DNA from: Pseudalkalibacillus salsuginis
GTDB taxonomy: Bacteria > Bacillota > Bacilli > Bacillales > Fictibacillaceae
DNA: 64,000 nucleotides
Assembly: GCF_021646685.1 (NCBI RefSeq)
Contig: NZ_JAKJHW010000002.1
Coordinates: 1 to 64,000 of the forward strand
Direction of reading: 5' to 3'
Part shown: positions 25,698 through 43,626 of the stretch, piece by piece
How positions within the stretch are numbered: position 1 is the stretch's first letter
Layout: every line of letters begins with the position of its first letter
Made by a program: the position numbers and the translations under genes
The notes under the pieces: model-generated
Seen by the model: the letters and a program-made list of their open reading frames with translations, nothing else
Database searches by the model: none
What the model was told of the DNA's origin: nothing

Positions 25698-26873
25698 TTA
25701 TACCTTTTTAAATTTGAGATCGTCGAACGTTACACAATCCTCTACTTCGATATCACCCTCATCAGAACATACTACATCTGAATCAAAAATGGTTTTACCT
25801 TTACGGTTGATCAATTGAAGCTGGAACAACGTTTCTGAGTCACTATCAACGACTGCAAAGTTGAAATCCACTGTCTTTCCATCAACTTTACCAGTACCGC
25901 TAACGATCAGTTTCAGACCATCTTTCGTCTCTTCGCAGCATAATGTCTCTTGATCAAATGTTTTCGCTGTAAAATTGAAGCTTTGTGAACCATCACCAGA
26001 ATCAGAATCCCTGAAGCTGGCCCTTAATTCACTGTCAACTAGACTGCAGTCTGGACAGATATTAACAAGGACTGATAAGCGACCCTGTTCCGTTGCATCA
26101 GGTCCAGTATCCCCGCTCGCTTCTCCTTCTGCAGAGCAATCGCAATTCGGTCTAGGGAAGATTCCTGGACATTGTTCTGGAAAATGTACCTTAGGACACC
26201 GGTCATCGACCACATCTTCTTCTGCTACAAGGTCATTGTCTCTAGGTGAGCAGAATTTAGCCAGTACTTCGAGTTTCACTTCTGCTTCTACTTGGATATC
26301 GAGACAAAATGTAATCTCTATATTGAAACGATCTGGTGCTGGTGTATTGAGGAGTACCGTTCCTGTCGGAATGCGACAGAAAATCTTGGATACTTTGCAG
26401 AATAAGTCTGTTCCTTCTGGGAAGCAAAGTACAAATGATTCAAAGACTGATGCATTGACGACCGCTTTTGTAACAACACATCCATGTCTATCGACAACAA
26501 GTACCTTAACATCAGTACTTATCAGCAGCTCCACTAGTTGCGCATCGATGAACCCGCCATTGGTTGAGATCGTGACGTCACGTGTTTCTCCCACTTGTTC
26601 ACAAATGAATCCTAAATCGTGATCGTGATCTTCATTTCCACTGCTTAGAGGGAATAATGGAGGTGTTTTCGGCGGTTCACAGACAAGACGCAAAGGGCGG
26701 CGACTCGGGTCATCCATCGCTTCTTCTATATCTCTGAGCTGATCTTCTGTAAACAAAACCGTCTTGGTGACGGTAAGTGCATCGGTAACCCAGTCGTACA
26801 CTTTCTGTACGCGGATACACTCATCCTGTAAGCTGTTGGCAGCTTTAGGTATGTCGTGTTTTTTCTTACTCAT
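25698..26873 (-). CDS. Acidic Cys-containing protein, putative spore-surface structural protein
   Basis: 391 residues. The first 40 residues contain ECIRVQKVYDWV, a start I associate with uncharacterised Bacillales surface or spore proteins. A beta-rich middle follows, with Cys spread throughout (about 18 in all) and short clusters such as CPDC and NCDC, then a Ser/Asp/Gly-rich DSDSGDG linker. The end is a second beta-rich part. It is very acidic, has no signal peptide or membrane helix, and would be made and kept in the cytoplasm. ATG at 26873 has AAGGGA upstream; the longer frame to 26912 places this site inside the gene. Function unknown; coat or exosporium role is inference. Confidence 0.6.
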   Translation of the reverse strand: MSKKKHDIPKAANSLQDECIRVQKVYDWVTDALTVTKTVLFTEDQLRDIEEAMDDPSRRPLRLVCEPPKTPPLFPLSSGNEDHDHDLGFICEQVGETRDVTISTNGGFIDAQLVELLISTDVKVLVVDRHGCVVTKAVVNASVFESFVLCFPEGTDLFCKVSKIFCRIPTGTVLLNTPAPDRFNIEITFCLDIQVEAEVKLEVLAKFCSPRDNDLVAEEDVVDDRCPKVHFPEQCPGIFPRPNCDCSAEGEASGDTGPDATEQGRLSVLVNICPDCSLVDSELRASFRDSDSGDGSQSFNFTAKTFDQETLCCEETKDGLKLIVSGTGKVDGKTVDFNFAVVDSDSETLFQLQLINRKGKTIFDSDVVCSDEGDIEVEDCVTFDDLKFKKV

Positions 26874-26981
26874 AGTTTCCCTTCCTTTCTTCATCATGAA
26901 CTGAAGATTCAATACATACTATGGGAATACGACGGCTAATGACACAAAGATTATTGCCTATTTTTAAAGGAGGGGAATGCT

Positions 26982-27770
26982 GTGTACAGCGTTTCATTTA
27001 ATAGAAAAGAAGTATGTAAGCTTTCTTCTGAGGAACTGCAAATACTTAAGAAAATAGCTGTTTTCTGGGGATTGGTCTGGGAAGATTCCACTAATCAATT
27101 GAATGGTAGATTATTAGGGAAAACAGTCCGTATCATAGGATTGAATAGGAAAGAATTGAACCGTTTGAACCGTTCACTAGAACATACACAAGCTATCATT
27201 ACAACCCATCCTTGCCATGCAGATCTGACTTTGTCAGTCTTTAAGGAAACAGCTCCCAAAGTTACAATAAAAATAGAATCCAACAACCAGGTGTTTGAGT
27301 TCGAACCTCCCAGTAAACCATCCTTCCAATCGGTGTCAGACATGATCTACAAGCGATTTGAACCGGTCATCTCTGATGCAGTGAAAGTTTACTGGAATCC
27401 TGTAAATTGCATCGATATCACTGAATGGCTAGCCTATTTAATTTTAAAACCTAATGAATCCACTGAACTTTTGCAGGATGTACCTTTAAAAACCTTTGAA
27501 TCGCTTTTGAGAAATGTCCTTGTACCGATCAATCCCTTTTTATCCTCTTATCAGCTTAAGCACTACTGGCCGGAAATTCCAAAAAGCAAATCCGATAAAC
27601 AACAGTCCGGAGAACTGATTAGCTCTTTCAAAGGAAAGAATAATTTTCCTGCTACACAGATCAATCCATTTAAAGAAAAACCGGAAACACCATCAACCAC
27701 CATCAATCCATTTAAACCAAAAACTGAAGGGAAGAACAACAACGTTATCAATCCATTTTTCAAAAAATAG
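26982..27770 (+). CDS. Protein with C-terminal NPF repeats, function unknown
   Basis: 262 residues, not recognised. The N-terminal two thirds look like a globular alpha/beta domain (KIAVFWGLVWED, TVRIIGLNRKELNRLNR, TIKIESNNQ). The last 90 residues are Lys/Pro/Asn-rich and repeat the tripeptide NPF in INPF four times, once at the end of the globular part and three times in the tail, the last just before the stop codon. Start is GTG with AGGAGGGG eight bases before. It is divergent from the Cys-containing gene and next to a 47-residue CxxC protein, all inside the glycan locus. No signal peptide or membrane helix. Confidence 0.6.
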   Translation: MYSVSFNRKEVCKLSSEELQILKKIAVFWGLVWEDSTNQLNGRLLGKTVRIIGLNRKELNRLNRSLEHTQAIITTHPCHADLTLSVFKETAPKVTIKIESNNQVFEFEPPSKPSFQSVSDMIYKRFEPVISDAVKVYWNPVNCIDITEWLAYLILKPNESTELLQDVPLKTFESLLRNVLVPINPFLSSYQLKHYWPEIPKSKSDKQQSGELISSFKGKNNFPATQINPFKEKPETPSTTINPFKPKTEGKNNNVINPFFKK

Positions 27771-27982: not shown

Positions 27983-28020
27983 AAAAACCAACACCTGTAA
28001 CAAGGAAGTTGGTTTTTATT
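27983..28020. terminator. Bidirectional terminator
   Basis: Stem AAAAACCAAC / GTTGGTTTTT with a 15-base loop. It ends the plus-strand small gene and, from the other side, cysC. Confidence 0.75.
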
Positions 28021-28615
28021 TTTTCAAATATCCATTTTTGAATAGATAATTCATGATTTGTTTTACACACACATTGGGAGACATCATTGTGGTATCAACG
28101 ACTATTTCTGGATCTTCAGGATGTTCATAGGGATCCGAGATACCTGTGAAGTTTTTTATTTCCCCCTTTAGTGCTTTTTCATAAAGCCCTTTTGGGTCCC
28201 GCGCTTTTAAAGTATCTAGATTGCACTTCACATAAACTTCGATAAACTCATTTTTATTCACCAGGTTTCTGACAAAATCCCTGTCTTTTTGAAATGGAGA
28301 TACAAAGGTTGCCAGGACAATGATCCCGGCATCGACAAATAGTCGGGCTACTTCTCCAACTCTTCGGATATTTTCTTCCCTGTCCTTTTGAGCGAAACTG
28401 AGGTCTTTGTTAAGGCCCATCCTGATATTATCTCCATCAAGTATATAAGTAGAAATGTTGTGACGGTATAATGCACGATCGAGACGGTTTGCAATAGTGG
28501 ACTTACCAGAACCTGATAAACCCGTGAACCAAATGATGAAGCTTTTATGACCGTGCAGCAATTGTCTCGCCTTCTTAGGGACATCCTGTTGATGCCAAAA
28601 TAAGTTCGATGTCAT
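28016..28615 (-). CDS. cysC: Adenylylsulfate kinase
   Basis: 199 residues, full length. The P-loop is GLSGSGKST (32-40), followed by LDGDNIRMGLNKDLSF and the IRRVGEVARLF helix, and RDPKGLYEKA near the C-terminus, all hallmarks of APS kinase. It makes 3'-phosphoadenylylsulfate (PAPS), the sulfate donor of sulfotransferases. The frame extends to a GTG at 28624, but that codon lies in the Shine-Dalgarno (GGGAGG), so the ATG at 28615 is used. Third gene of a sat-permease-cysC operon; no PAPS reductase accompanies it, which points away from assimilation. Confidence 0.93.
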   Translation of the reverse strand: MTSNLFWHQQDVPKKARQLLHGHKSFIIWFTGLSGSGKSTIANRLDRALYRHNISTYILDGDNIRMGLNKDLSFAQKDREENIRRVGEVARLFVDAGIIVLATFVSPFQKDRDFVRNLVNKNEFIEVYVKCNLDTLKARDPKGLYEKALKGEIKNFTGISDPYEHPEDPEIVVDTTMMSPNVCVKQIMNYLFKNGYLKK

Positions 28616-28628
28616 TCTTTGCACCTCC

Positions 28629-30395
28629 CTAACTTAATGGCCATAAAAGTGGAACGATGGTCATCGTCATTATGAACCCAATGATATTAAGTGGTAAACC
28701 GACTCTGATGAAATCAGCAAATCGATATTGGCCAGAACTGTATACGAGTAAATTGGTCTGGTAACCTATAGGAGTCGAAAAACTGGCAGATGCAGCAATG
28801 GCTAGGACAACGGCAAATGGATGGGGATTTAATGATAGTTCGTTTACAAAGGAAAGGACAATTGGGAACATGATTACTACAGCTGCATTATTCGTGATGA
28901 TCTCAGTCAATATATTGGTTACAAGATAAACACTCATCAACAGGATGAACGGCGTCATGGCATCCAAATTCAAGAAAACGAGATTGACCACGGAATCTGC
29001 AGCCCCTGATTTCGTCATGGCTGTGGCGATCCCAAACGCTCCACCTATGATGAAAAGGATATCCCATTTGATCGCTTCCATGGCCTCATCGAAGGTAGTT
29101 ACTTTCAAAAGAATCAAAATGATGGCAGTCGTGATCGCCGCGTGTGCTATCTGGACGAGTCCAAAACTGACCAACAACAGCATCAATCCAAATAAACCAA
29201 TCGGAATCCAATCTTTGAAGGTTCCATTTTTATCGGTTGGATACACATCTAGAACAAGTAGGTTTTTTGACGCACGATCGGTTTTCAATGACTCGTTGGT
29301 TGTAAGGACCACCAACATATCGCCCGATTTCAAACGGATAGAACCGATTTTTTCGTTGATCCGCCTTCCTTTCCGATATACTGCGACCACTATCCCCCCA
29401 TGTCTTGTACGGAATTTGATATCGCTGATCCTCTCTGATACATAGGATGAATGCTGAGGTACGGTTGCTTCCACTAATTTGAATTCATTATGATGGTCGG
29501 TGAAATCATACCGTGAATGTTCTATGACCAGCCCCCTCATATGTTCGATTTCTTGGGAACAAGTCTCGTCTCCGACGAATAACAAATGATCACCGTCGTT
29601 GACTTTCTGTGTAGGGGATACAGGGAAAATCCATTCTCCTTGTCTCAAAACCGCCATTACATAACATTTTTTCAGATGACGTAAGCCTGCCTCCTCCAGT
29701 GTTTTACCGGTTCCTGAGAATTGTTCATTCACTTTAACCTCGACAATGAACTTTGGACTTATGATCTTTTGCAGATAATTCGTATCATGCTGCGGAAGCA
29801 GCCTATAGCCGAAGAACAGCATATAAAAGAGCGCGATGATGAAAAAGGGAACACCGATATACGCTAATTCAAATAAGGAAAACCCTTTGTAACCTTCTCT
29901 TAGTAATAATGTATGGAGGACCAGGTTTGTCGATGTGCCTATCAACGTACACATTCCCCCGATGATAGCTGCATAAGAGAGCGGAATCAACAGTTTTGAT
30001 GGAAAGATCGATTGCTTTTCTGCCCATCTTTTCACAATTGGCGTAAAGAGTACGACAAGAGGGGTATTGTTCATGAAACTTGATAACCCACCTGTCACGA
30101 CCATCATACGCGACATTCCGCTTCTCAGTGTCTGTTTATTTCCAAATACAAATTTTGTTATGTTAGAGAAGGAAGGATGCTTCTGAATCGAATTCATGAC
30201 GATGAACAATGAAGCAATCGTAAGGACCCCTTCATTTATGAACCCCCCGAATGCCTCAGTAAGAGAGAGTACTCCGCTCCATATTAAAACTAAAACAGCA
30301 CTGAGGACGATCACTTCTGCGCTGTATACGTTTGTAAGCAGGAATAGGAGCATGACGCCGATGACAATGTATGTTATCCATATATCAGTTATCAA
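28629..30395 (-). CDS. SLC13/DASS family permease with TrkA-C domains (probable sulfate transporter)
   Basis: 588 residues. Two blocks of membrane helices (about 5-200 and 400-588) enclose two TrkA-C-like domains (about 205-375, with VKVNEQFSGTGKTLEEAGL and ERISDIKFRTRHGG). Both transport signatures are visible: GTSTNLVLHTLLL in the first block and TPIGYQTNLLVYSSG in the second. Members move sulfate or dicarboxylates with sodium. Its place between sat and cysC makes sulfate the likely substrate. TTG start at 30395; the ATG two bases upstream runs into a stop. It begins five bases behind sat. Confidence 0.85.
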   Translation of the reverse strand: MITDIWITYIVIGVMLLFLLTNVYSAEVIVLSAVLVLIWSGVLSLTEAFGGFINEGVLTIASLFIVMNSIQKHPSFSNITKFVFGNKQTLRSGMSRMMVVTGGLSSFMNNTPLVVLFTPIVKRWAEKQSIFPSKLLIPLSYAAIIGGMCTLIGTSTNLVLHTLLLREGYKGFSLFELAYIGVPFFIIALFYMLFFGYRLLPQHDTNYLQKIISPKFIVEVKVNEQFSGTGKTLEEAGLRHLKKCYVMAVLRQGEWIFPVSPTQKVNDGDHLLFVGDETCSQEIEHMRGLVIEHSRYDFTDHHNEFKLVEATVPQHSSYVSERISDIKFRTRHGGIVVAVYRKGRRINEKIGSIRLKSGDMLVVLTTNESLKTDRASKNLLVLDVYPTDKNGTFKDWIPIGLFGLMLLLVSFGLVQIAHAAITTAIILILLKVTTFDEAMEAIKWDILFIIGGAFGIATAMTKSGAADSVVNLVFLNLDAMTPFILLMSVYLVTNILTEIITNNAAVVIMFPIVLSFVNELSLNPHPFAVVLAIAASASFSTPIGYQTNLLVYSSGQYRFADFIRVGLPLNIIGFIMTMTIVPLLWPLS

Positions 30396-30400
30396 TCATG

Positions 30401-31540
30401 TCAGTCCTTCAATTTCTGATAATAGTCAATCAAGATGTCAACGACTTCTTTTCTGCTGAAATACAACGGGGGAACCGTGCCCTCTTTCAACATTTTCCGT
30501 ACTTTCGTACCAGATAAATGGATATGGTTTTCGGAATCATGGGGACATGTCTTCAATGAGGTCATTTGATCACACTTTCTACAATAGAAACTATGTTCAA
30601 GGCAGACGGGGACGATACCTAGATCATCTCCTTTGAATTGATTCAATAATCGTTGAGCATCATATGTGCCATAATAATCCCCTACACCTGCATGATCCCT
30701 TCCGATAATGAAATGGGTACACCCGAAGTTTTTCCGTACGATTGCATGGAAGACAGCTTCTCTCGGGCCGGCATACCGCATTGAACTTGAAAACACACCA
30801 AGGAGATAGCGGTCTTTCGGATAGTAATTGTCCAATAACACCTCATAACACTTCATCCTGACCTCTGCGGGCACATCGTCTGACTTCGTCTCACCAACGA
30901 GAGGATGGAGAAATAAACCATCCACATGCTCCAATGCAGTTTTTTGAATATACTCATGTGCTCTATGGATCGGATTCCGTGTCTGGAACCCAACAATCGT
31001 ATTCCAGCCTTTTTGTTGAAAAATAAGCCTTGTTTCTTCGGGAGCATAGGTATGGTTTGGAAATGAGGCTGTGACCCTTTTGAACATCGTTATCTGACCG
31101 CCGATATTGACAGACGGTCGTCCATATAGTTTCTTCACTCCTGGATGATCCGGATCCACTGTGCCATAGATGAGTTCCGCCTCCCGTTTCAGATCGACAT
31201 GATAGATATCATCAACTTCTAGTACCCCGTAAACATCACTGTCGTACACTAGTAAGACCCGCTTTTCGTCCTTCAATTCTGAGATACGTGTTTCATCAAT
31301 TGGAAGGGTGATCGGGATCGTCCATATTTCTCCTGTTTTCAACCTCATGTAATCCAGTACATTGTCATAATCATCTTTTGTCATGAAGCCTTCTAAAGGA
31401 CTGTATACACCTGAGGCAATACAGTCCAGGTCATTTAATTGGCCCCTCGTGAGTTCAATTTTCTTCAAGTTTGTGAATTCTTCCGTACAGATAAAACCAA
31501 ATCTATTGATGAGTCTTCCACCATGTGGAACACTTGTCAT
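30401..31540 (-). CDS. sat: Sulfate adenylyltransferase (ATP sulfurylase)
   Basis: 379 residues, near the B. subtilis Sat length. The active-site motif [10 protein letters not shown] is at 186-195, and the second motif [12 protein letters not shown] at 280-291, with a Cys cluster ([14 protein letters not shown]) in the C-terminal part as in bacterial monofunctional Sat. It forms adenylylsulfate from ATP and sulfate, the substrate of CysC. It follows the GT4 gene by four bases and precedes the permease, so sulfate activation is co-expressed with glycan assembly. Start ATG with GAGGTAACAGC before it. Confidence 0.93.
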
Positions 31541-31544
31541 GCTG

Positions 31545-32582
31545 TTACCTCCTGTTCATGAATCCTTTGATTGCTACTTCGAAAAGGTCGACACTTCTAT
31601 CCCATGTCCATTTAGATGCTTCTTTCTCTCCTTCGATCGCAAGCTTCTGACGAAGCTGGGCGTTCTCTATTAGAGTAGAAACGTGCTCAAACAACATATT
31701 TTCATGGCGATAAGATAATAAACAGTTTTCTCCATGACGGCAGTAATCCATGTTTCCTCCTGAATAGACTGTTGCCAATGCTGCTCCACATTTCATCGCT
31801 TCCAGTCCAGGTAAGGAAGCTGTATCATAGGTTGATGAGCTCACAAAAATATCTGTTTTATTCAGGAATCGGTTAAGCTGCATATCATCACGAGGTCTTA
31901 ATGATTGGAATGAGCGGTTTGAGTGGTATTGATGAAGGGTCGGAGAGGATATGACTTCATTTGGGGGTGAAATCAAATTGAAAATCACACGTGGATATTT
32001 CTCCTTTAATGCCCTGAAGGTCTCAATAAGATATTCCTGTTCTCTATGCCATGAATATCCACCTTCTTGTATTCTGACGATTCCGCTAACTTCCAACCTT
32101 TTGCTCGATCGCCTTTTGCCTAGATTGCAAAAGTTCCCGCTTACACCTACAGGTACGATCGAACCTTCGATTCCATGGTTCAATTTAATGAGTTGTTGCT
32201 GCCAATTGGAAAGGACGACAAGATTTTTACTGATATGATAGCTCTTGAAAGAAGCTTCATGATCTGGCAGAAACACAGGTTCATAACAAAGACTGATCCT
32301 TACATGTATCCCTTTGCCAGCATGGCTGGCTTGCTCGCATATAGGCGTCAATGTATAAAAGTTAGAGACAATGACGTCACTGACTGGTATTTCATCCGCA
32401 GTAATGCTTTGTCCCTTCGTCCGGATCACACTGACATGTAACGGATATTCGATAACCCCTTGCGGTGGCATGACAACTGCCACATCATATCCTTTTTGGG
32501 AAAGACCATTCGCAAGCTCCACAAGCATTCTTTGAGCCCCTCCTTTACAGAGAGTGATCACTGCAAATGTTATCTTCAAACA
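31545..32582 (-). CDS. Glycosyltransferase family 4
   Basis: 345 residues, GT-B fold. The start has [23 protein letters not shown], a typical GGA(E/Q)R acceptor-side motif, and the C-terminal half carries the E-x7-E-like element [22 protein letters not shown] with [11 protein letters not shown]. Retaining transferase; donor unknown. The frame continues to two GTG codons, but GGTGG is placed seven bases before the TTG at 32582, and this gives the usual N-terminus [10 protein letters not shown]. It leads the sat-permease-cysC genes. No membrane helix. Confidence 0.82.
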
Positions 32583-32608
32583 CACCACCACCTTTCTTTA
32601 TTTTTACG

Positions 32609-32916
32609 GCTTTGTTAAATAGTAATGTTGTTTGCAGGAAATTCTCTAAGCCAAATTCGCGACACTCGAGCGGGAAAGGCGAGCCAGGCTAGACCCCGCA
32701 GCAATTTAAGGATTCTCGACTAACAACCACCACGTCCTGTGGTGAATGTCGAAGCCAGCACAAGGAAAGCTTCTAAGAATTCTCATCGCAGACACGAAAA
32801 TGATTTTATTTTTGTGTTGACATCCTGTGCAAGTAAGCGAGGAGGCTTGCGGATCGTCCGCGGAAAGGGAGTGAATTTTGCATTTATCAACAATGAACTT
32901 TAACTGAGGCTATTTT
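32609..32916 (-). repeat. Dispersed repeat family B, complete copy
   Basis: About 300 bp containing TTTGCAGGAAATTCTCTAAG, TTCGCGACACTCGAGCGGG, GCGAGCCAGGCTAGACCCCG, the hairpin CACCACGTCCTGTGGTG inside a larger CGAC..GTCG stem, GCAAGTAAGCGAGGAGGCTTGC and TCCGCGGAAAGGGAGTGAA. The same blocks occur at 57809-58190. The strand is arbitrary. It fills the whole gap between two glycosyltransferase genes, so it may split the operon. Confidence 0.85.
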
Positions 32917-34125
32917 TTATAAGTTTCCAAGGTATTTAAAGCACTCTAGAAAACTTTGATATCGGCGAAGTTTCCTTAATTGTTGTATTTCATTAAAGAG
33001 GGCATTCTTGTCTATTTTTTGTTTAGAGAGACTGGTGATCGGTTCGTTCTTACTCTTAAGCCTCCCTATTTCTCGTAACATACCATGGAAACATTGTTTG
33101 ATAGATTTATAGGCATCCGGGTATCGAATGCAAAGATCCTGATAATTGACTAAGATTTGGTTTGTTTTATGGAGATTAAATGGTTTAGGTAAAAACGTGA
33201 GGCTGATGATCATTTGGTCCACCTCTTTATAGGTTTCCTGGAACCTGAAATAATTTTCTTTCGATTCATCCCGGATCGTTTTGGCTATCGGGTGTTCCTG
33301 ATGATAGCTGATTAAACGTTCATCACTGGTGAATACAGCTCCATTTTTATAAAGACGGTACCCCATTTCACAATCATCCCATCCATATCCTGGGTATTCC
33401 GAAAATAGACCTACCTGCTCGATCGCACCTTTAGAAACCGACACGTGGCCTGTTCCGAACATTTGCCATGGAATCTTATAACCCTTTAATTCATAACCGT
33501 AATTCGCGATGATCACCCGGTTATAAAATTTCTCATAAGGTGTAATCGTGGATAATCTTTTGTATTTCTCCGAAAAGATATGATGCTTGTTTAACAACAG
33601 CAATTTTTGAGGTTTCTTATCAAATGCGTCGACTTTCGCCTTAAACTCTGGTAAAGCCCGGGTGATTCCTCTGCATTCTTGTAATTGACTTTCAGAAAAA
33701 TCAGGATACAAAATAGAATATAATCTCCTGATGGTCATGACTCCTGTAACGACCATATTCGAATGTTTACTATGATAGTGATGGTGGATCGTTAGAAAAT
33801 CAGGCTGAACGATAATCTCCGCATCAAGGAAAATGAGGATTTTTCCTTTTGCATTCTTTATACCCAGATTTCTTGCTGCTGGTCTGCCGATGTTATGACC
33901 ACTCCGTATTAACTTAAAGTGAAAAGGAAATGTATGGCTAATCAATGTTCTCGTCTGATCTGTAGAACCATCATCAATCATGATGACTTCTACTTTGGAA
34001 AGATCGAATTGTTGGTTTTCAATAGAATATAGGGTCAATAAATTTTGGGGGTATTTATTATACGTCGGAATGATGATACTGATTTCAATATCCTGTTCCA
34101 GGGGTTTTTCTTTCCTTATTTTCAT
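32917..34125 (-). CDS. Glycosyltransferase family 2 with GT7-like C-terminal motif
   Basis: 402 residues. The GT-A domain begins SIIIPTYNKYPQNLL, with IDDGSTD and, in place of a usual DxD, LDAE. The middle contains a 100-residue insertion and then the galactosyltransferase-like motif YPGYGWDDCEMGYRLY (about 270), which normally places the catalytic base. A further 100 helical residues end the protein. Soluble. It is nine bases downstream of the next GT2 gene and belongs to the same transcript. Donor unknown; the GWDD motif suits an inverting hexose or hexosamine transferase. Confidence 0.8.
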   Translation of the reverse strand: MKIRKEKPLEQDIEISIIIPTYNKYPQNLLTLYSIENQQFDLSKVEVIMIDDGSTDQTRTLISHTFPFHFKLIRSGHNIGRPAARNLGIKNAKGKILIFLDAEIIVQPDFLTIHHHYHSKHSNMVVTGVMTIRRLYSILYPDFSESQLQECRGITRALPEFKAKVDAFDKKPQKLLLLNKHHIFSEKYKRLSTITPYEKFYNRVIIANYGYELKGYKIPWQMFGTGHVSVSKGAIEQVGLFSEYPGYGWDDCEMGYRLYKNGAVFTSDERLISYHQEHPIAKTIRDESKENYFRFQETYKEVDQMIISLTFLPKPFNLHKTNQILVNYQDLCIRYPDAYKSIKQCFHGMLREIGRLKSKNEPITSLSKQKIDKNALFNEIQQLRKLRRYQSFLECFKYLGNL

Positions 34126-34134
34126 CTCAATATT

Positions 34135-34908
34135 TCACTCCACATCATCGTCTCGAGAACATTCCTCTCTTATTCCGGTTTCTTCACAATGAATAAGTCT
34201 GGCCAACATCCCTTTATATTTTTCTTGTACGGCCTTGATTTCTTTCCATTGTCCCTCCACGAACCTTTTCGAACCCATATTGTCATGGATCCGATAATTC
34301 AGTAAAGATTCACCCATGACTCTCAGTTCGTACTTGGCCGCCATCCTTATCCACATATCGTAATCCTGTGTATACTTCAACGTTTCGTCGAACCAACCGA
34401 TCGATGAGAACATCTCTTTTTTTACCAAAACCGTACTTCCATTAACCGGACAGCTTTTTTGGAGCTGCTTGAATAAATCAACCTTACTCGTGAGAATCAA
34501 CCCAACATCCTTTTTGAAAACGACACTATGCTCATCGATCAGGTTGAAATTGGTATACACCATATCCGCCTTTGTTTCCTGCATGAACTGAACCTGCTTA
34601 GCCAGCTTATCCTTTAAAAATACATCATCTGAACTCAACCATGCGATCAATTCTCCTGTGGAAGATTGGATTCCGGTATTCAAAGCACTAGCTGTACCAC
34701 CATTTTCTTTTTTTATATACAAAATTTGATTCAAAAATGGATTGATCAATGATGTATGTTGTGTCGATCCATCATCGACCAGGATGACTTCCCTATTTCG
34801 ATAGGTCTGTCTAAGGGCACTCCTTATCGCTTGATCGACATACGGACAATTATAAAAAGGTATGATGATACTTATTTTCGGCAAATTTTCCAACGTGGTT
34901 TTCCTCAT
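34135..34908 (-). CDS. Glycosyltransferase family 2
   Basis: 257 residues, compact GT-A fold: KISIIIPFYNCPYVDQAIRS, VDDGST, NGGTASALNTG, SSDD as the metal site, and TQDYDMWIRMA with LNYRIHDNMGSKR. The gene at 41111-41857 encodes a close paralogue with the same order of motifs (NGGTASALN, WLSSDD, YRIHGAMGSK). No membrane helix. It sits 18 bp downstream of an SDR gene. The shadow reading for its extension was not used; the ATG at 34908 has a weak ribosome binding site. Confidence 0.82.
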   Translation of the reverse strand: MRKTTLENLPKISIIIPFYNCPYVDQAIRSALRQTYRNREVILVDDGSTQHTSLINPFLNQILYIKKENGGTASALNTGIQSSTGELIAWLSSDDVFLKDKLAKQVQFMQETKADMVYTNFNLIDEHSVVFKKDVGLILTSKVDLFKQLQKSCPVNGSTVLVKKEMFSSIGWFDETLKYTQDYDMWIRMAAKYELRVMGESLLNYRIHDNMGSKRFVEGQWKEIKAVQEKYKGMLARLIHCEETGIREECSRDDDVE

Positions 34909-34926
34909 TTCAGTCTTTAATGAATG

Positions 34927-35826
34927 TTATTGGACAATAGACTTATAGAAAGAAAGGATATCATTCAAAGTTGATTGGAGGGTATATTCCGGCTTCCATC
35001 CAAGTGATCTTACCAACCGTAAATCCAAGCCAACCGGGTCGGTTGCATGGGAATGATCCTTAGTAATTCGGATAGGTTGTGTGGTTATCAACTTAAAATT
35101 GTCCATCAGGTTCTCCAGCGTCCTGCTCTGTCCTGAACCGATATCAAAATGATCAAATTCACTTTCACTCATCAAAATCATTAGATATGCCTTGACCGCA
35201 TCCCGTACATCTACAAAATCGCATTCCGATAGACTATTGTATAGATGGACACGGACAGGTTCATTATTTTTTTCAGCGATGACGATCTCTTTTGCCACTT
35301 TAGAACAAATACCTTGGGAATGTCCGGGTCCGATAAGATTGGATGGTTTGGCTACAGCAATGTTCATATCGTAAAATCGCTTCCACTCTTTTGACAGGAG
35401 TGTCTGGAGCGTTTTACTGAGGCTATAGGGATGAGGTGGCTTTTCCCCAGAGCACAACGAATATTGAAGAGCGGAACCAATGATTAATATTTTAGACTTC
35501 GGAATATGAAGCCGGACAGCTTCTAGAAGATTGAGGGTTCCAAGTATGTTATTCTCTAAACAGGTATGCGGTGTTTCCCAAGATCGTCGAGCATCATTGA
35601 ACCCTGCAAGATGAAGTACATAATGTGGTTTTGCACTCTTAATGATTCCTTCAATCTGAGCATAGTCAGTCAAATCACACTGTTTGAATGGTATGGGTGA
35701 AGAAGGTTGAGGGCTCCTGCTGGTACAGATGACCTTTAATTCCGACTGATGAGCGAGTTTTACAGCGTGCACCCCAGTAAAACCGGAAGCTCCTGTTATC
35801 AGGATCCTCTTTTTAGAGGCTGGCAT
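34927..35826 (-). CDS. NAD(P)-dependent sugar epimerase/dehydratase or reductase (SDR)
   Basis: 299 residues of the extended SDR family. The Rossmann motif is GASGFTG, the active-site YSLSK (Y-x3-K) follows an SALQYS serine strand, and the C-terminal end GWKPEYTLQSTLNDIL is typical of nucleotide-sugar enzymes. The closest function by pattern is a GDP-4-keto-6-deoxymannose reductase or a similar 4-keto reductase, but I cannot assign it. It begins one base after the RmlD-like stop codon, hence co-transcribed and likely in the same deoxysugar pathway. Confidence 0.75.
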   Translation of the reverse strand: MPASKKRILITGASGFTGVHAVKLAHQSELKVICTSRSPQPSSPIPFKQCDLTDYAQIEGIIKSAKPHYVLHLAGFNDARRSWETPHTCLENNILGTLNLLEAVRLHIPKSKILIIGSALQYSLCSGEKPPHPYSLSKTLQTLLSKEWKRFYDMNIAVAKPSNLIGPGHSQGICSKVAKEIVIAEKNNEPVRVHLYNSLSECDFVDVRDAVKAYLMILMSESEFDHFDIGSGQSRTLENLMDNFKLITTQPIRITKDHSHATDPVGLDLRLVRSLGWKPEYTLQSTLNDILSFYKSIVQ

Positions 35827-35827
35827 T

Positions 35828-36646
35828 TCAGTCCATCCATTCCCTTAATTCCCTCAGCATTTCATCATAAGAGGGAGTCTGGTAACCGACATCTTCTCTA
35901 GTATTCATAAGCGTACGATCGCAAACCACCTTTTCGTATGGCTTTATGCTTACATCATCTTTCCCGAAAATCCCATGGATCTTCGTAAGTAGTGAATATT
36001 TGGAAAGGGGTTCTTGGGCGGTAAGATGATAAAGCCCAGAAACATTCTGAATGAGGAGAACATGTACCGCTTTAGCCAATTCAAGGGTAGTGATGCCATT
36101 CCAAAAGACATTGATGAATCCATTGATCTCCCCTGTTTGCTTCATGAACCAATTGAATAATCCGATTCCATCTTTCAATTCTGGTCCGATGATTGACGTT
36201 CTGACTGTAAGATGCGGCTCCTCCGTCACCTCTCCCAGTGCCTTGGTTCTGCCGTAAATACTTGTACTGTCCGGGAGATCCGTTTCAGTATGGTTGCCCT
36301 TTTGTCCATTGAAAACACAATCCGTACTTATGTGGATTAACTTAGATCCGATGATAGACAATTCATCCTTAAGAATATGCGGTAATAGGCTGTTCACCAT
36401 TATGGCATCCCTAGTGTGTTTTTCTGCACTTTCATTCAGGATACCTACACAATTGATGACAATATCAGGCTTCACATTTTGAATAACGCTTTTAAGTTCT
36501 GCCGTATTTCGGACATCGAGGTATATTCCTTCAGTGGCCTCCGGATTTCGATGAGTATAGTAAAGGTCATATTCTTTCAAACTGGTAAAATACTTGACTA
36601 TCATATGACCCGCCATTCCATGTCCTCCCAAGACAAGCACCCTCAT
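35828..36646 (-). CDS. RmlD-like nucleotide-sugar 4-keto reductase
   Basis: 272 residues. The N-terminal GGHGMAG cofactor loop, CVGILNESAEKH and STDCVFNGQKG segments and YGRTKALGE (Y-x3-K) mark the RmlD family of SDR reductases. It lacks the C-terminal cupin domain of CapF/WbjC. With the FnlA/CapE-like dehydratase (overlapping it by four bases, ATGA) and the FnlC/CapG-like 2-epimerase it completes a three-step UDP-N-acetyl-L-hexosamine pathway. In Vibrio cholerae O37 a WbvB-WbvR-WbvD set with an RmlD-like WbvR makes UDP-L-RhaNAc and UDP-L-QuiNAc, so that is my first guess; UDP-L-FucNAc is the alternative. Confidence 0.75.
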   Translation of the reverse strand: MRVLVLGGHGMAGHMIVKYFTSLKEYDLYYTHRNPEATEGIYLDVRNTAELKSVIQNVKPDIVINCVGILNESAEKHTRDAIMVNSLLPHILKDELSIIGSKLIHISTDCVFNGQKGNHTETDLPDSTSIYGRTKALGEVTEEPHLTVRTSIIGPELKDGIGLFNWFMKQTGEINGFINVFWNGITTLELAKAVHVLLIQNVSGLYHLTAQEPLSKYSLLTKIHGIFGKDDVSIKPYEKVVCDRTLMNTREDVGYQTPSYDEMLRELREWMD

Positions 36647-37629
36647 GACAGAAACCCACCTTTGAGTAGCATCTCTTTGATTTCGGCTTTGGACATCAGC
36701 ATCTCATGTGAGCTATAACTGTGCAGATCAATCTTTTTATAACTTTGGTAATGTTCCTTCAGCTCTTTAAGATCGATGGTCGGAAGGATGACAAAGTATT
36801 CTTCGTCAAAATAGACTGTTGTGTTGCTTTCATATTCAGAAAGCAGAATCTCATGCAATTTTTCACCTGGCCGAATGCCAGACTCTTTGATGGCAACCCC
36901 TTCTTTGCCTGATGCCTCAATCAATACTTCAGCTAAATCGATGATACGGCACGTTGGCATCTTCATTACGAAAATCTCTCCGCCCTTACTTTCGTCCGTA
37001 GCTTTGAATAAGAGCTTGATGGCATCCTGCAAGGTGAGAAAGAACCTGGTCATCCGTTTGTCAGTTATCCCGATTTCACCTTTCTGCTGGATCTGACGCT
37101 TGAAGACATGGATGACACTCCCATTCGTCCCAAGTACGTTACCACCTCTTACACATACAAATTTGGTTGATGGGCTGAGGACATTCGCATAGATGATAAG
37201 TTTTTCACCAATCGCTTTCGTCATTCCATAAAAGTTGGAAGGATTTGCAGCTTTATCTGTCGAGATGTAAATGACTTTCTCGATATTATTTTGGATAGCG
37301 GCCTCAATAACATGTTGTGTTCCCAACACATTCGTTTTGAGCGCCTCATATGGTTGATGTTCACAGATCGGCACATGTTTCAAGGCAGCCAGATGGTAGA
37401 TATAGTCTACCCCTTCTGAGGCTTTTGCCAGGCCTTGATATTCACGTATATCTCCGATGATGAAATTAAGCTTCGGATTATATTCAAATTCATGTTGCAT
37501 GTGGACTTGACTTGCCTCGTTACGTGAAAATATCCGGATTTCTTTCGGATCTTTTTCAAGCAGCTGTTTGACAAGTTCATGTCCCCACGAACCTGTTCCT
37601 CCAGTAATCAAAATCGTTTTATTTCTCAA
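36643..37629 (-). CDS. UDP-GlcNAc 4,6-dehydratase/5-epimerase (CapE/FnlA/WbjB family)
   Basis: 328 residues of the CapD/CapE SDR group: TGGTGSWGHELVKQL cofactor motif, the FSRNEASQVHMQHEF segment, the YHLAALKHVPICE block, STDKAANPSNFYGMTK with the catalytic Tyr and Lys, and RGGNVLGTNGSVI. This family converts UDP-GlcNAc to a UDP-4-keto-6-deoxy-L-hexosamine intermediate. Family knowledge places an RmlD-like or CapF-like reductase and a 2-epimerase next, and both are adjacent here. Gap of three bases to the upstream 2-epimerase gene. Confidence in the family is high, in the exact sugar low. Confidence 0.85.
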   Translation of the reverse strand: MRNKTILITGGTGSWGHELVKQLLEKDPKEIRIFSRNEASQVHMQHEFEYNPKLNFIIGDIREYQGLAKASEGVDYIYHLAALKHVPICEHQPYEALKTNVLGTQHVIEAAIQNNIEKVIYISTDKAANPSNFYGMTKAIGEKLIIYANVLSPSTKFVCVRGGNVLGTNGSVIHVFKRQIQQKGEIGITDKRMTRFFLTLQDAIKLLFKATDESKGGEIFVMKMPTCRIIDLAEVLIEASGKEGVAIKESGIRPGEKLHEILLSEYESNTTVYFDEEYFVILPTIDLKELKEHYQSYKKIDLHSYSSHEMLMSKAEIKEMLLKGGFLS

Positions 37630-37632
37630 TAG

Positions 37633-38715
37633 TCAGCGACCTCCTAATAAAAATTGAACTACTTTATGTGAAACTTGCTTTTCAAGATAACCAACTGGAC
37701 ATTCCCACTCCGAATCTTGGTTTATCATGATTCTAACTGCATCCAATATGCGCTTCCTGTTCAATCCAGACACGACATTACTTCCACAATCGACGGTTTC
37801 TGGACGTTCGGTACTGTTTCGGATCGTGACGGTAGGAACTTTGAAGATGCAACATTCCTCCTGAACTGTCCCGCTGTCAGTCAATACGCAAAGAGCTTGT
37901 TTTTCAAGCTGGACAAAATCGAAGAATCCAAAAGGATCAAAGAATCGTATGTTTGGATGGTGGGTCAATTGTGTTAGGTTTTCCAACTTGGATTTCGTAC
38001 GGGGATGGATACTGCATATGATCGGTTTATTGTAGGTTTCAGCGATAGAGTTAAGTCCTTCGAAAATTTCAACCAGATGCACAGGATTGTCTACATTTTC
38101 TGCACGATGGGTTGTCACAAGGAAATACTCCTGTGGACTTAGATCCAATTTGGCCATGATCTTGCTGTTATCAATTGTTTTTTCGTAATGTTTAAGCACT
38201 TCATAGATAGGATTTCCAAATAACATGATCCGATTGCTCGGAATCCCTTCACGTAGCAAGTTATCCCTGCTATTCGGTGTATAGGGGAGATTATAGGTGG
38301 AAATCGCATCGATCACTTTCCTGTTTTTCTCCTCTGGGACAGCTAAATCGAAGCATCTGTTTCCAGCCTCCATATGGATGACAGGGATGCTCATTCGTTC
38401 AGCTAGCACCGCACTCAATGCACTATTCGTATCACCTAGAACGAGAACTTTATCGGGTTTTTCCCGTAACAGGATTTCTTCAATTCGTTCAAACATGGAT
38501 GCTAATTGACTCCCTAATGACTGTTGCTTAGTCTGTAAAATGTAATCAGGCATCCGTAAATCCAGTTCTTTAAAGAATATTTCACTTAAGTTATAAACAA
38601 AATTCTGACCAGTATGGACCAATATATGCTGATCAGCCCATTGATCCAGTTTTTTCAAGATCAGACTTAAACGTATGATCTCTGGACGTGTACCCAGAAT
38701 CGTCAAGACTTTCAT
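37633..38715 (-). CDS. UDP-N-acetyl-sugar 2-epimerase (FnlC/CapG/WbvD branch)
   Basis: 360 residues, GT-B-like epimerase fold: TILGTRPEIIRLSLIL at the start, HTGQNF, the GDTNSAL strand, the branch marker EAGNRCFD (WecB/MnaA have EAGLR), THRAENVD, and the late DSGTVQEEC. The EAGNRCFD form is typical of CapG/FnlC-like enzymes acting on UDP-6-deoxy-L-hexosamines, not on UDP-GlcNAc. First gene of the deoxysugar block of at least six genes down to 32917. The 118-bp gap to the sulfotransferase gene (38716-38833) shows no terminator. Confidence 0.85.
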   Translation of the reverse strand: MKVLTILGTRPEIIRLSLILKKLDQWADQHILVHTGQNFVYNLSEIFFKELDLRMPDYILQTKQQSLGSQLASMFERIEEILLREKPDKVLVLGDTNSALSAVLAERMSIPVIHMEAGNRCFDLAVPEEKNRKVIDAISTYNLPYTPNSRDNLLREGIPSNRIMLFGNPIYEVLKHYEKTIDNSKIMAKLDLSPQEYFLVTTHRAENVDNPVHLVEIFEGLNSIAETYNKPIICSIHPRTKSKLENLTQLTHHPNIRFFDPFGFFDFVQLEKQALCVLTDSGTVQEECCIFKVPTVTIRNSTERPETVDCGSNVVSGLNRKRILDAVRIMINQDSEWECPVGYLEKQVSHKVVQFLLGGR

Positions 38716-38833
38716 ACCAAACCCCTTTCATTATCCTCAGGCTTTCTCCTATTAACCTATGACACGGGTATCATGCAAGCATAGACAAGCCCCTATAATC
38801 GCTTAAATAAATTCAAATAGGCGCAATTTTACA

Positions 38834-39613
38834 TTACCAATCCAGATTTTTTTCATAGCCAAGCTCGATCAACAGTGGACCTGCTACTTTTTTGAATGTC
38901 GATCGGAGTTCCCCATCCATTTCATCTTTCCACCCGCCGATCTTTCCTTTTCGGAATGTCGGGGAAGTGCCTGGATCGATATTCTGGATCATTTTCCCGA
39001 CCATTTCTTGCCTGCTGGATGGCATAGAAAGATCTCCCCAAAGAAATTTAACGATCCTATGTGTTGCTTGCAACCTACTTGTATCAGACGAAATCAAATC
39101 TTCAAAGCGGACAGGATGTACATTGTCTTTTCCGATCCATGTTGAAAAGCTTTTGTACCACTCCAGTACATCTGGCTGATAAGCTTTTTTCGGATCGGTC
39201 GGTTGGCCGCCTTTGATGAGGAACTTGATACGATCACGATGTGTGAAACCTTCCTGTTTGAACGTATCGTATAAAGGGTGAATTTTTAATGCAGGTATGA
39301 AATAGGCATATGACACAATGACATCCCGTGGATCCCGGTAGACGAATATTTGCTTCATACTTAATTCCTTGAAAAACGTCTCCCATTCTGTACTATAAAA
39401 CAGGTGTCCATTCACAAATTCATTGTTTGTAAGATCTTTGATTCTCTCAAGCTGTATAGACGTCTGATATTGTATATGCCCGAACATTCCTTTATCCGGG
39501 TGATGATTCATCCCTGGAATGCCTCGTAACATCTGTTTTACTAAATGGGTTCCACTTTTCGGGATCGTATTCAGCAAAAATGGCGGCAGCCCTTGTGACT
39601 CATTTGTTACCAA
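38834..39613 (-). CDS. Sulfotransferase (PAPS-dependent)
   Basis: 259 residues. The PAPS 5'-phosphosulfate loop is PKSGTHLVKQML (18-29), the 3'-phosphate-binding segment VYRDPRDVIVSY is at 91-102, and the C-terminal motif RKGKIGGWKDEM is at 221-232, so all three cofactor-contact regions of the sulfotransferase family are present. It is cytosolic by sequence (no signal or membrane helix). Its donor is PAPS, which the Sat-CysC pair 8 kb downstream can produce; its acceptor is likely a sugar residue of the glycan encoded here. TTG start with AGAGGG before it. Confidence 0.88.
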   Translation of the reverse strand: MVTNESQGLPPFLLNTIPKSGTHLVKQMLRGIPGMNHHPDKGMFGHIQYQTSIQLERIKDLTNNEFVNGHLFYSTEWETFFKELSMKQIFVYRDPRDVIVSYAYFIPALKIHPLYDTFKQEGFTHRDRIKFLIKGGQPTDPKKAYQPDVLEWYKSFSTWIGKDNVHPVRFEDLISSDTSRLQATHRIVKFLWGDLSMPSSRQEMVGKMIQNIDPGTSPTFRKGKIGGWKDEMDGELRSTFKKVAGPLLIELGYEKNLDW

Positions 39614-39850
39614 TATTTTCCCTCTCTTCCATTTTTATATTTGGCTCTGTAAAGTTCATTTTTGATTTATACCTTATATTCAAAGGCTTTTACATCCTAT
39701 GAACCGACCATTGAGGATGATTGGACAACTTTCCTATGAAATTACATTTTTCCAATTGATCTGTACTATTGGTGATCAGTACAAGCAGTTACAGATGTGG
39801 AAACATATATATAATTCAATAATCTTCAAGAAGAGGGGAGTTTAACTAGA

Positions 39851-40912
39851 ATGAAGGTCCTTTTCACTTATTTCATATCCAGTGGGGGTGTCGAGACACT
39901 CAACAGGCACCGAATCAAGGCACTTGGCAATGTTGGTATAGAATGCCACTTGCTATACAAAGAGCGAGGATCAGGCCACCAAAATATCTCAGGTATCAAA
40001 ACGTTCATAATGAGTGATCCTTTGGCGATAACAGCCTTGATCAAAAGGGAACAATATGACCTGATTGTCGTTTGTACAGATTACCAACTCCTTCAAGTAA
40101 TCAGAAGGTCTGGGTATAAGGGGAAACTGGTATTCGAGCTCCAAGGCCTGGGTAATTACAGGTCAACAGAACGTTTCTTCATCCAGCATAACCCCATCAT
40201 TAATAGAGCTGCTGATGGGATTTTGCTTCCCAAAACAGAACATTTGATTCGATTATCCAACAACTACCTTTCAGCTTTGCCACGCTTCCCAATCCATAAT
40301 TGCTTTGATAACGAGACCTTTCATCACGTGAAAGTGCAAAAACCACCTTCTCCAATCATCGCTTGGGTCGGAAGGATCGAAAAAAATAAAAATTGGAAGT
40401 TTTTCCTTGAAATCGGAGAAAAAATGATTGAACGGAATAGCACATTAAAACTGTGGATGTTCATTGATGACACGATCTTTGAACATTCTCAGAAACAAAG
40501 GTTCTTGAGGAAAAAAGAATCTGCAAAGTTATCGAATAACCTTGTAATCCATAACAACATAAAAAATCATCTGATGGCGAAATACTACTCTGAAATCGCA
40601 GATTCTGGAGGTTTTTTATGTTCAACATCTCAGGTGGAGGGTTTTGGCTATACGATCGTAGAGGCTATAAGCTGTGGTTGCCCGATCCTCACCACTGATT
40701 CGGATGGTGTCCGTAACATCATAGAAAATCAGGTATCAGGTCTTTTTATCGAACAAGGTAATGTGATGAAAGCGGTCTTACAAGGAGAACGATTATTGGC
40801 AAATTCCAAATTTCGTAACTTCTTGACCGTCAATGCAAAGTATCATCTTAAACAAACCTTTTCTCTGGAACGTTATGCGTCCGAATTCATGAACATGTAC
40901 ACAAATCTATGA
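39851..40912 (+). CDS. Glycosyltransferase family 4
   Basis: 353 residues, GT-B fold. The N-terminal half has FTYFISSGGVETLNRHR, and the C-terminal half IIAWVGRIEKNKNWKFFLEI, then CSTSQVEGFGYTIVEAISCGCPILTT with the two conserved Glu residues, typical of retaining GT4 enzymes. No membrane segment. It is alone on the plus strand between minus-strand genes, so it has its own promoter in 39614-39850, where I see an AT-rich stretch but no clear consensus. GGGGAG lies ten bases before the ATG. Confidence 0.85.
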   Translation: MKVLFTYFISSGGVETLNRHRIKALGNVGIECHLLYKERGSGHQNISGIKTFIMSDPLAITALIKREQYDLIVVCTDYQLLQVIRRSGYKGKLVFELQGLGNYRSTERFFIQHNPIINRAADGILLPKTEHLIRLSNNYLSALPRFPIHNCFDNETFHHVKVQKPPSPIIAWVGRIEKNKNWKFFLEIGEKMIERNSTLKLWMFIDDTIFEHSQKQRFLRKKESAKLSNNLVIHNNIKNHLMAKYYSEIADSGGFLCSTSQVEGFGYTIVEAISCGCPILTTDSDGVRNIIENQVSGLFIEQGNVMKAVLQGERLLANSKFRNFLTVNAKYHLKQTFSLERYASEFMNMYTNL

Positions 40913-40914
40913 AT

Positions 40915-41012
40915 CAATAAAAGCGGAATTGCCCTGTTTAGCCACGAAGGTCACTGGAAATCCGACGAGAAGGTTCGAACCAAACAAAGTTCGGTTCTGC
41001 TTGGATAACTTC
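40915..41012 (+). repeat. Dispersed repeat family A, 5' half only
   Basis: Shares AAAGCGGAATTGCCCTG, AGCCACGAAGGTCACTGG, CGACGAGAAGG and ACCAAACAAAGTTCGGTTC with the long copies, then stops; the right half is missing. It begins right after the GT4 stop codon. Confidence 0.75.
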
Positions 41013-41058
41013 TTAAGTAATACTCATTTTGTCTCCCCCACCTTTTCTTACCCAAAAC

Positions 41059-41109
41059 AAAAACTGGCTACAGTCTCTCCCAGAAGTGAGAGGGATTGAT
41101 GCCAGTTTT
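41059..41109 (-). terminator. Terminator of the GT2 gene at 41111
   Basis: Outer stem AAAACTGGC / GCCAGTTTT with an inner CTCTC..GAGGG-type stem, T-rich on the minus strand. Confidence 0.7.
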
Positions 41110-41110
41110 G

Positions 41111-41857
41111 TTATAAATACCTTTGATTTCTTTTTGCGCGTGTGATCATATTGATCAACCTGCTCATCTGATCCCGGTGCTTCCTCTTGACTTTATGGAT
41201 CTCATTTCGTATAACCTCTTTATGAACTTTTGAGCCCATCGCTCCATGAATTCTGTAATATACTAAAGGTTCTGGGAAATAAGGAAAATCATATTTTGGT
41301 ATCAACCTCAGCCAAAGATCGTAATCATGCGTAAAAGGCAAGGATTCATCAAACATTCCAATCTCTTTAATGGCATTGATTTTTGCCATCACAGTACACC
41401 CATTGATGATACACCCCGATCGCATCGTTTTAAGGAAAAACCATTTGTCTGCAAAGCCTACGCCGACAGGTTCACTTGTGATATGATCACGTGCATTCAT
41501 CAAATAATAGTTCCCATAAGAAATGACAGCTTGCTGATCTTGCATGAACTGAAGTTGCTTTCTGATTTTTTCAGGATGGTACATGTCATCCGAACTTAAC
41601 CAGGAAAAATATTCCCCCTTGGCATGAAGGATCCCTAGGTTAAGGGCGCTTGCAGTTCCTCCGTTCCCCTTTTTTATATAAGTAATTTTCCCTTTATAAG
41701 GATTGATACGTTCGACATGTTGTGTCGATCCATCATCAATGACGATGATTTCACAATTATTATAGGATTGGTTTAAGGCACTTTCAATTGCGCGATCAAT
41801 ATATTGACAATTATAAAAAGGTATTATAATCGAAACTTTCGGTGTAATTGGATTCAT
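41111..41857 (-). CDS. Glycosyltransferase family 2
   Basis: 248 residues. Motifs: VSIIIPFYNCQYIDRAIESAL, IDDGST, NGGTASALNLG, WLSSDD, FTHDYDLWLRLI and VYYRIHGAMGSKV. It is a close paralogue of the gene at 34135-34908. The frame begins at a TTG (41887) inside the upstream CgeB-like gene; the ATG at 41857 has GAGG eight bases before it and gives the same N-terminus as the paralogue, so it is used, with some doubt. Its start lies 14 bases behind the CgeB-like stop, so translation may be coupled. Soluble. Confidence 0.8.
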   Translation of the reverse strand: MNPITPKVSIIIPFYNCQYIDRAIESALNQSYNNCEIIVIDDGSTQHVERINPYKGKITYIKKGNGGTASALNLGILHAKGEYFSWLSSDDMYHPEKIRKQLQFMQDQQAVISYGNYYLMNARDHITSEPVGVGFADKWFFLKTMRSGCIINGCTVMAKINAIKEIGMFDESLPFTHDYDLWLRLIPKYDFPYFPEPLVYYRIHGAMGSKVHKEVIRNEIHKVKRKHRDQMSRLINMITRAKRNQRYL

Positions 41858-41870
41858 CCTCCTTCCCTCA

Positions 41871-42785: not shown

Positions 42786-42850
42786 GTAATCACCTTAAAT
42801 AGATTGTTTGAGGTTGACTCAAAAAATGAGACAACCTCAAACTTTGGTTG

Positions 42851-43060: not shown

Positions 43061-43311
43061 TTTAACACTCCTTTTATGTTAATTAGCATCACAATCGATG
43101 CTTCTTTATATATATGTGGCAATATGTCGAGTTGCATGGACAACCATGTATGTAACCAAAAATTGGTTGTGTGCGGACAAGGCTAACATCCATTTTTGAT
43201 AGGAGTAGGTCTTGACCCATTCAAAAGGACATCAATTGCAATATAGTATAGTAACCCTTTCTAATATGCATTTTGGGGTGCATACACACTTTTTATAAAG
43301 GAGGAAACGAA

Positions 43312-43572: not shown

Positions 43573-43590
43573 CTCATAATCCTTAAGTAA

Positions 43591-43624
43591 AAGAACCTGA
43601 TTTGACAACAAATCAGGTTTTTTC
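43591..43624. terminator. Rho-independent terminator behind the Cys-rich gene
   Basis: Stem AACCTGATTT / AAATCAGGTT, six-base loop, then TTTTTT. It may also act on the convergent glycosyltransferase gene. Confidence 0.85.
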
Positions 43625-43626
43625 TT

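Follow-up and report, generated by a model that had tools for sequence, protein, structure and literature searches.

A candidate PAPS-dependent sulfation module for a spore-surface glycan in Pseudalkalibacillus salsuginis and its relatives

Genes for the supply of 3'-phosphoadenosine-5'-phosphosulfate (PAPS) are known to accompany sulfotransferases in the glycan systems of Gram-negative bacteria, and rhizobial NodPQ and NodH provide a dedicated source of PAPS beside a glycan sulfotransferase. A similar arrangement is present in a glycan locus of Pseudalkalibacillus salsuginis (Fictibacillaceae; assembly GCF_021646685.1), in a stretch of 64,000 nucleotides (contig NZ_JAKJHW010000002.1, positions 1 to 64,000; hereafter the window), where genes for an ATP sulfurylase (sat2), a permease and an adenosine 5'-phosphosulfate (APS) kinase (cysC2) share the locus with a sulfotransferase gene (ST1). 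In contrast with the Gram-negative systems, this locus belongs to a Bacillota host, has single-chain Sat and CysC instead of CysDN/C, adjoins a gene for a spore coat protein of the BMQ_0737 family and has a promoter motif in common with a sporulation gene. We consider it probable that the locus encodes a module dedicated to sulfating a glycan of the spore surface.

Two systems of Bacillus also resemble this locus. Spore-surface glycan loci (sps, cge and those for exosporium glycans) contain many cytosolic glycosyltransferases and deoxysugar genes next to coat genes; our locus is alike in this, and no exporter was found in it. To our knowledge, sulfation has not been described for the sps, cge or exosporium loci, and a search of open-licence PMC literature by titles and abstract starts returned no paper on sulfated spore glycans. 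The spore setting of a PAPS/sulfotransferase system is unusual. The second system is yitBA-yisZ/yitCD of B. subtilis, in which yitA, yitB and yisZ are homologs of sat, cysH and cysC. It also contains a second sulfate-activation set, there expressed late in sporulation, but it includes a PAPS reductase, which we take yitB to encode, whereas our locus has sulfotransferases and no reductase. According to one report, the B. subtilis genes were inferred to make phosphosulfolactate late in sporulation (PMC517825).

The sulfate-activation operon and ST1

An initial annotation of the window had described sat, an SLC13-type permease and cysC as a tight operon fused to a gene for a family 4 glycosyltransferase (GT4), with a complete sulfotransferase about 8 kb away among deoxysugar genes. 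The corresponding features are as follows:

28016..28624, minus strand: cysC2, APS kinase (PF01583, 8.5e-67), grouping in a clade with other locus copies
28629..30395, minus strand: SLC13/CitMHS-type permease with TrkA_C domains (PF03600, PF02080, PF00939)
30401..31540, minus strand: sat2, ATP sulfurylase (PF01747, 1.6e-98), motifs intact, in its own clade
31545..32591, minus strand: GT4 glycosyltransferase (PF00534), gene 1 of the sat operon
38834..39613, minus strand: ST1, PAPS-type sulfotransferase (PF00685) with invariant motifs and a SULT fold

Coordinates and Pfam/NCBIfam assignments bear out the tight operon with GT4. The gap is 4 bp between GT4 and sat and 5 bp between sat and the permease; the 13 bp given earlier for the permease and cysC holds from the ATG at 28615, and is 4 bp from the GTG start. 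The word 'fused' is right for the adjacency of GT4 and sat, but the two proteins are separate. CysC2 scored 262 bits against TIGR00455 (cut-off 138.7) and Sat2 431 bits against TIGR00339 (cut-off 323). The permease matched CitMHS, Na_sulph_symp and two stretches of TrkA_C, and its 110.5 bits against the NCBIfam dass model fell below the cut-off of 198.6 bits for a DASS/SLC13 sulfate symporter; it is probably a sulfate importer.

The enzyme motifs had been called intact, and this agreed with our comparison of relatives. All 17 full-length locus copies of sat had the motifs of that enzyme, and all 20 cysC copies had the P-loop; the PAPS motifs of ST1 were invariant in the 12 aligned relatives. 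Among the 20 cysC copies, the DGDN, SPF and NIRR patterns were unmatched in 9, 14 and 1, respectively, either because these patterns were too narrow or because the copies diverge there.

ST1 itself is complete and lies 7.3 kb from sat2 in the same glycan locus (PF00685, 2.8e-18; 66.7 bits, curated cut-off 22). Its PAPS-binding residues, in motifs which we take to be the 5'-phosphosulfate loop, the 3'-phosphate R..S motif, RKGxxGxW and a conserved histidine, were conserved in 12 of 12 aligned sequences, as was the candidate catalytic His70. A profile (43 sequences) detected SULT structures (best 2zpt, 6.4e-14), and the predicted structure of ST1 (pLDDT 88.4, pTM 0.85) was most similar to SULT7A1 (E 2.9e-9, TM 0.65). 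The cytosolic SULT enzymes (2zpt, 5x2b) have the PF00685 fold and the PAPS motifs in common with ST1, but identity was only 15-22% and TM about 0.54-0.66 among the matches listed.

The SULT enzymes that ST1 matches act on small molecules, so its fold is no proof of a glycan acceptor. It might be supposed that the acceptor is a small molecule, a lipid or a residue of a coat protein, as the nearest solved structures would suggest, but sulfotransferase genes stand among glycan genes in several genera, and the same locus of one relative (G019 in our numbering of family genomes) encodes a 490-aa protein in which a family 2 glycosyltransferase (GT2, residues 5-129) is fused to Sulfotransfer_1 (residues 246-478). 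This fusion, seen in one genome only, appears to be the strongest sign of a sugar acceptor, and we regard a non-glycan acceptor as quite unlikely.

Separation from sulfate assimilation

The initial annotation had found no cysH, sulfite reductase or sirohaem gene in the window, proposed that PAPS is made here for sulfation and not for assimilation, and named as a test the search of the whole genome for cysH and a second sat/cysC set. In this genome (19 contigs, 99.6% complete) we identified two cysC, two sat, one cysH and two PF00685 sulfotransferase genes. The second set is located on contig C7 beside the only cysH, in the order cysH, cysP, sat, cysC, sulfite reductase, sumT and sirB (neighbor names are our reading of the open reading frames (ORFs)), and cysH and full-length sulfite reductase each had a single strong match genome-wide, both on this contig. 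Judged by its gene content, the C7 set is a standard assimilatory operon.

In trees of cysC (47 sequences) and sat (44 sequences), locus and assimilatory copies fell on the two sides of one branch (support 96/91 and 97/96; 98% of bootstrap trees), and the split appears to be old. The trees left out 7 of 54 cysC and 6 of 50 sat matches, namely the locus copies of G010, G011, G013 and G016, the second cysH-linked copies of G004 and G008 and, for cysC, also the CysNC-like copy of G033.

We then consider 34 genomes of the family, in which PF00685 was present in 21, cysC in 33 and sat in 32. PAPS-reductase-type matches (E<=1e-10) were found in 29 of the 34, two of them weak (G007 and G031). In three congeners (G027, G029 and G032) cysH is missing, and each has just one sat and one cysC, both at the glycan locus and, measured between match starts, 10.7-10.8 kb from ST1. 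With the sulfite reductase of the window strain as query, 6 of 12 genomes searched gave a full-length match, all with strong cysH; nothing was found in G027, G031, G001 and G007, and G029 and G032 gave a short weak match. Lacking both cysH and full-length sulfite reductase, the three congeners could hardly feed locus PAPS into assimilation. Two Fictibacillus genomes (G001 and G007) are also without strong cysH and have their single sat-cysC pair at the locus.

The idea of a redundant assimilatory pair that sits in a glycan locus by chance can appeal to the identity of the enzyme families and to the cysH elsewhere in the window strain, which could use the PAPS. However, the locus pair is retained in genomes without cysH and forms a separate clade; we reject an assimilatory role and consider this chance placement extremely improbable. 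A late-sporulation sulfonate pathway like that of B. subtilis, where a second such set is expressed late, is also very improbable, since no PAPS reductase is present in the locus and none at all in G027, G029 and G032. The proposal that the PAPS is destined for sulfation was supported by the second set and by the cysH-less relatives; its 'surface glycan' is more probably a glycan of the spore.

Distribution among relatives

A cysC away from strong cysH was counted by hand in 24 genomes, with the extra CysNC-like copy of G033 set aside. Neighborhoods were read for 22 of them (the window, 19 regions, G010 and G013; G011 and G016 were left out), and in 20 of the 22 the locus cysC was no more than 3.5 kb from the BMQ_0737 gene (8.6 kb in G003 and 11.8 kb in G019). 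Locus cysC and PF00685 anywhere in the genome occurred together in 20 genomes, cysC only in 4, the sulfotransferase only in one (G025) and neither in 9 (Fisher p 1.2e-4, or 0.025 within group g2 alone, uncorrected for kinship). The locus sat of G004 is a 133-aa fragment; no sat was found in the stretch read of G019, and no sulfotransferase in the stretch read around the locus of G001. G031 has no sat, and its orphan cysC is in a locus without deoxysugar genes. Proteins of 441-450 aa beside the Fictibacillus sat-cysC were considered as sulfotransferases and rejected, as the three tested matched glycosyltransferase families only.

An alignment scan with the coat protein yielded 50 BMQ_0737-type loci of named records, covered over at most 10 kb on each side; a scan with ST1 alone as query found no relative. 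In the stretches covered, 15 loci had cysC, 5 had a sulfotransferase without cysC and 30 had neither. The 15 are Pseudalkalibacillus-like or Fictibacillus, plus three strains placed in this genus by genome search: Alkalihalobacillus sp. YIM B00296, whose coat protein is the nearest among named records to that of the window strain (98%), Rossellomorea aquimaris and Bacillus sp. Marseille-Q3570. The set is contained in the locus of the type strain Pseudalkalibacillus decolorationis DSM 14890 (L090). The five are P. hwajinpoensis Y2 (L098), NTK071 (L099), CinArs1 (L103), A. macyae (L106) and A. algicola (L117).

The second PF00685 sulfotransferase of the window strain, ST2, is unlinked (contig C13 at 928,702, near apparent nadABC genes). 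We built a sulfotransferase tree of 40 rows (one duplicate) that included 29 of 34 PF00685 matches from family genomes; it was made without G033 C7, G033 C4:5410, G030 C81, G014 64k and G007 1258k, and it was flagged for the possible meeting of long branches. ST1 formed one clade of nine in-locus rows and ST2 a separate clade of nine, unlinked in this genus and in-locus in A. macyae, A. algicola and CinArs1, and the unlinked sulfotransferase of seven Fictibacillus genomes grouped with the in-locus one of G004. These placements suggest that sulfotransferase genes enter and leave the locus yet tend to stay with the system. Across the order, PF00685 occurred in 70 of 397 genomes and 34 of 135 genera; sulfotransferase genes are fairly common there, not very rare.

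Several further arrangements were observed. CinArs1 and A. algicola have an in-locus permease 49-51% identical to that of the window together with ST1 and ST2, and no sat or cysC in the stretch covered. In G033, one contig edge (L087, C5:1-15000) has ORFs resembling CysD and CysNC together with a DASS-like permease and a gene of the inositol-phosphatase family, that is, a second and different sulfate-activation set, and another (C4:201-6057) has two Sulfotransfer_3-type sulfotransferases; the two are possibly one module split by assembly. Beside the sat-cysC of a Fictibacillus locus (L077, G014:C7:58001-78000) stand three sulfotransferase genes, one for a GT61 and one for an epimerase that has a Polysacc_synt_C domain; we read this as a different version of the glycan. 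The GT2a of G030 (L071, 11358-11964) is in two short ORFs of 108 and 103 aa and is broken or misassembled.

The spore setting and the proposed pathway

The remaining features of the locus and its surroundings are listed here (SDR, short-chain dehydrogenase/reductase; the four deoxysugar genes were assigned by Pfam/NCBIfam):

25698..26912, minus strand: BMQ_0737-family morphogenetic spore coat protein (NF052457, 137.9 bits, cut-off 71), a neighbor conserved in relatives
26982..27770, plus strand: NPF-repeat protein, a conserved neighbor, coat-like by position only
32917-34125 and 34135-34908, minus strand: two GT2 glycosyltransferases (PF00535)
34927-35826, minus strand: SDR, deoxysugar gene
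35828-36646, minus strand: RmlD-like reductase, deoxysugar gene
36643-37629, minus strand: PseB/FnlA-like 4,6-dehydratase, deoxysugar gene
37633-38715, minus strand: WecB-like 2-epimerase (wecB), deoxysugar gene
38753..38788, minus strand: promoter-like motif upstream of wecB, from upstream-region comparison among relatives
39693..39728, minus strand: promoter-like motif upstream of ST1, from the same comparison
39851..53396, unstranded: remaining glycan locus (GT4, several GT2, galE, SDRs, UDP-galactopyranose mutase, methyltransferase, PIG-L deacetylase)

On the minus strand, the order of transcription is ST1, wecB, 4,6-dehydratase, RmlD-like reductase, SDR, GT2, GT2, a gap of 325 bp (32592-32916), GT4, sat, permease and cysC. 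The counterpart of this gap is below 100 bp in G027, G029, G032 and G033. In our estimation the gap resembles an extragenic repeat element of Bacillaceae; no repeat of at least 12 bp was found within 32560-32960. The NPF-repeat protein had no Pfam or NCBIfam match. BMQ_0737 has been reported as one of the outermost proteins of the spore. In the window, the DNA from 26820 to 27000, which covers the first codons of the BMQ_0737-family gene and the region upstream of them, is strongly conserved in 13 relatives; the true start is probably an ATG near 26873, which follows a good ribosome-binding site, rather than the TTG of the annotation.

Comparison of upstream regions revealed a shared motif, TTGTCYA...CATANNNT, before ST1 and wecB. 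It also precedes the unlinked ST2 in G027, G030, G032 and G033, and that of the window strain with one mismatch; unlike the ST1 and wecB sites, this is an independent part of the motif evidence. Among 57 matches in seven genomes of the genus, 4 were before ST1, 4 before ST2, 3 before wecB and 7 before YjcZ-like ORFs (one per genome). Two YjcZ-like ORFs matched TIGR01732, one of these seven (1e-13) and another from G028 (1.4e-9). Other ORFs downstream of the motif are of the GDSL-like lipase type (L162, L165), encode a short Cys-rich protein (L166) or are again YjcZ-like (L172, L180), possibly a wider sporulation regulon. The reverse complement of TTGTCCAA presumably fits a SpoIIID box. Upstream of the coat gene, blocks including AAAAATAGGC and CATAGTATGTAT did not vary among the 13 relatives aligned, and we take AAAAATAGGC to be GerE-like. 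One study places yjcZ of B. subtilis in the sigma-K regulon (PMC517825). A looser CATANNNTR box lies upstream of both ST1 and wecB and is similar to sigma-K -10 elements, for instance the ones reported for bclA and bclB. Strict sigma-K and sigma-E patterns had one match upstream of 22 window genes, at ugd. As the strict sigma-K pattern is absent at ST1 and wecB, sigma-K control of these two genes is something that we infer.

The gene content of the locus is like that of capsule loci, and marine bacteria have sulfated capsules, a cluster for which is described in a report on Vibrio sp. KMM 8419 (PMC11641403). The glycan could accordingly be a capsule or exopolysaccharide of vegetative cells, with the coat gene as a chance neighbor. 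However, the coat gene stays beside the locus across genera, the promoter-like motif is common to YjcZ-like genes, and no flippase, polymerase or exporter, nor an initiating transferase, was found among the 30 proteins scanned (22148-53396), so that a capsule seems unlikely. The coat-gene neighbor and the motif in common with a YjcZ-like gene led us to refine 'surface glycan' to a sulfated spore-surface glycan made by the mother cell, and a spore glycan appears more likely than a general surface glycan.

Besides the SULT likeness of ST1, several observations weigh against a dedicated module of the spore glycan. In the window genome, the 325-bp gap parts GT4-sat-permease-cysC from the upstream run of ST1 to GT2. 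The locus sulfotransferase of G007 is broken by an internal stop, the sulfotransferase is unlinked in seven Fictibacillus genomes, and in four of 24 genomes (G002, G003, G008 and G031) the locus cysC is retained with no PF00685 sulfotransferase detected; another sulfotransferase family, PF13469, was sought in the first three and none was found. With neither gene at 30 of 50 loci, many BMQ_0737-type loci do not have the module. As for the motif, two matches in the window against 0.03 expected came from a pattern built on those very sites and are no independent test; the 57 matches in seven genomes, some of them inside or beside unrelated genes, compare with 30 for a reversed control, and the strict sigma-K pattern AC-N13-16-CATANNNTA was not found upstream of ST1 or wecB. 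The 30 loci and the partial circularity of the motif evidence hold down our confidence in the spore-glycan module.

At the level of sequence we have established the enzyme families and their motifs, the order of the genes, their separation from assimilation and the shared motif. Under the proposed pathway, the mother cell would transcribe the locus late in sporulation, the permease would probably import sulfate, and Sat and CysC2, by family assignment, would convert it to APS and then PAPS. The locus glycosyltransferases would assemble a glycan with N-acetyl-6-deoxyhexosamine in the mother-cell cytosol, and ST1 and the unlinked ST2 would transfer sulfate to it from PAPS, as suggested by their motifs, the shared promoter motif and the fusion in a relative. 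The glycan may then decorate the outer coat in the vicinity of the BMQ_0737-type protein, while assimilation would be handled by a separate operon where present. More broadly, we lean slightly towards an old, sporulation-controlled PAPS/sulfotransferase pathway of Fictibacillaceae and neighboring families that would serve spore-glycan sulfation alone, be kept without assimilation and use two sulfotransferases at different positions.

If this is true, sulfate esters would give the spores a strongly acidic surface, which bears on adhesion, metal binding and dispersal, and sulfation would join the chemistry of the spore coat. It would also mean a use of PAPS in Bacillota apart from assimilation, and these genomes would offer glycan sulfotransferases of bacterial origin, among them a glycosyltransferase-sulfotransferase fusion that occurs naturally.

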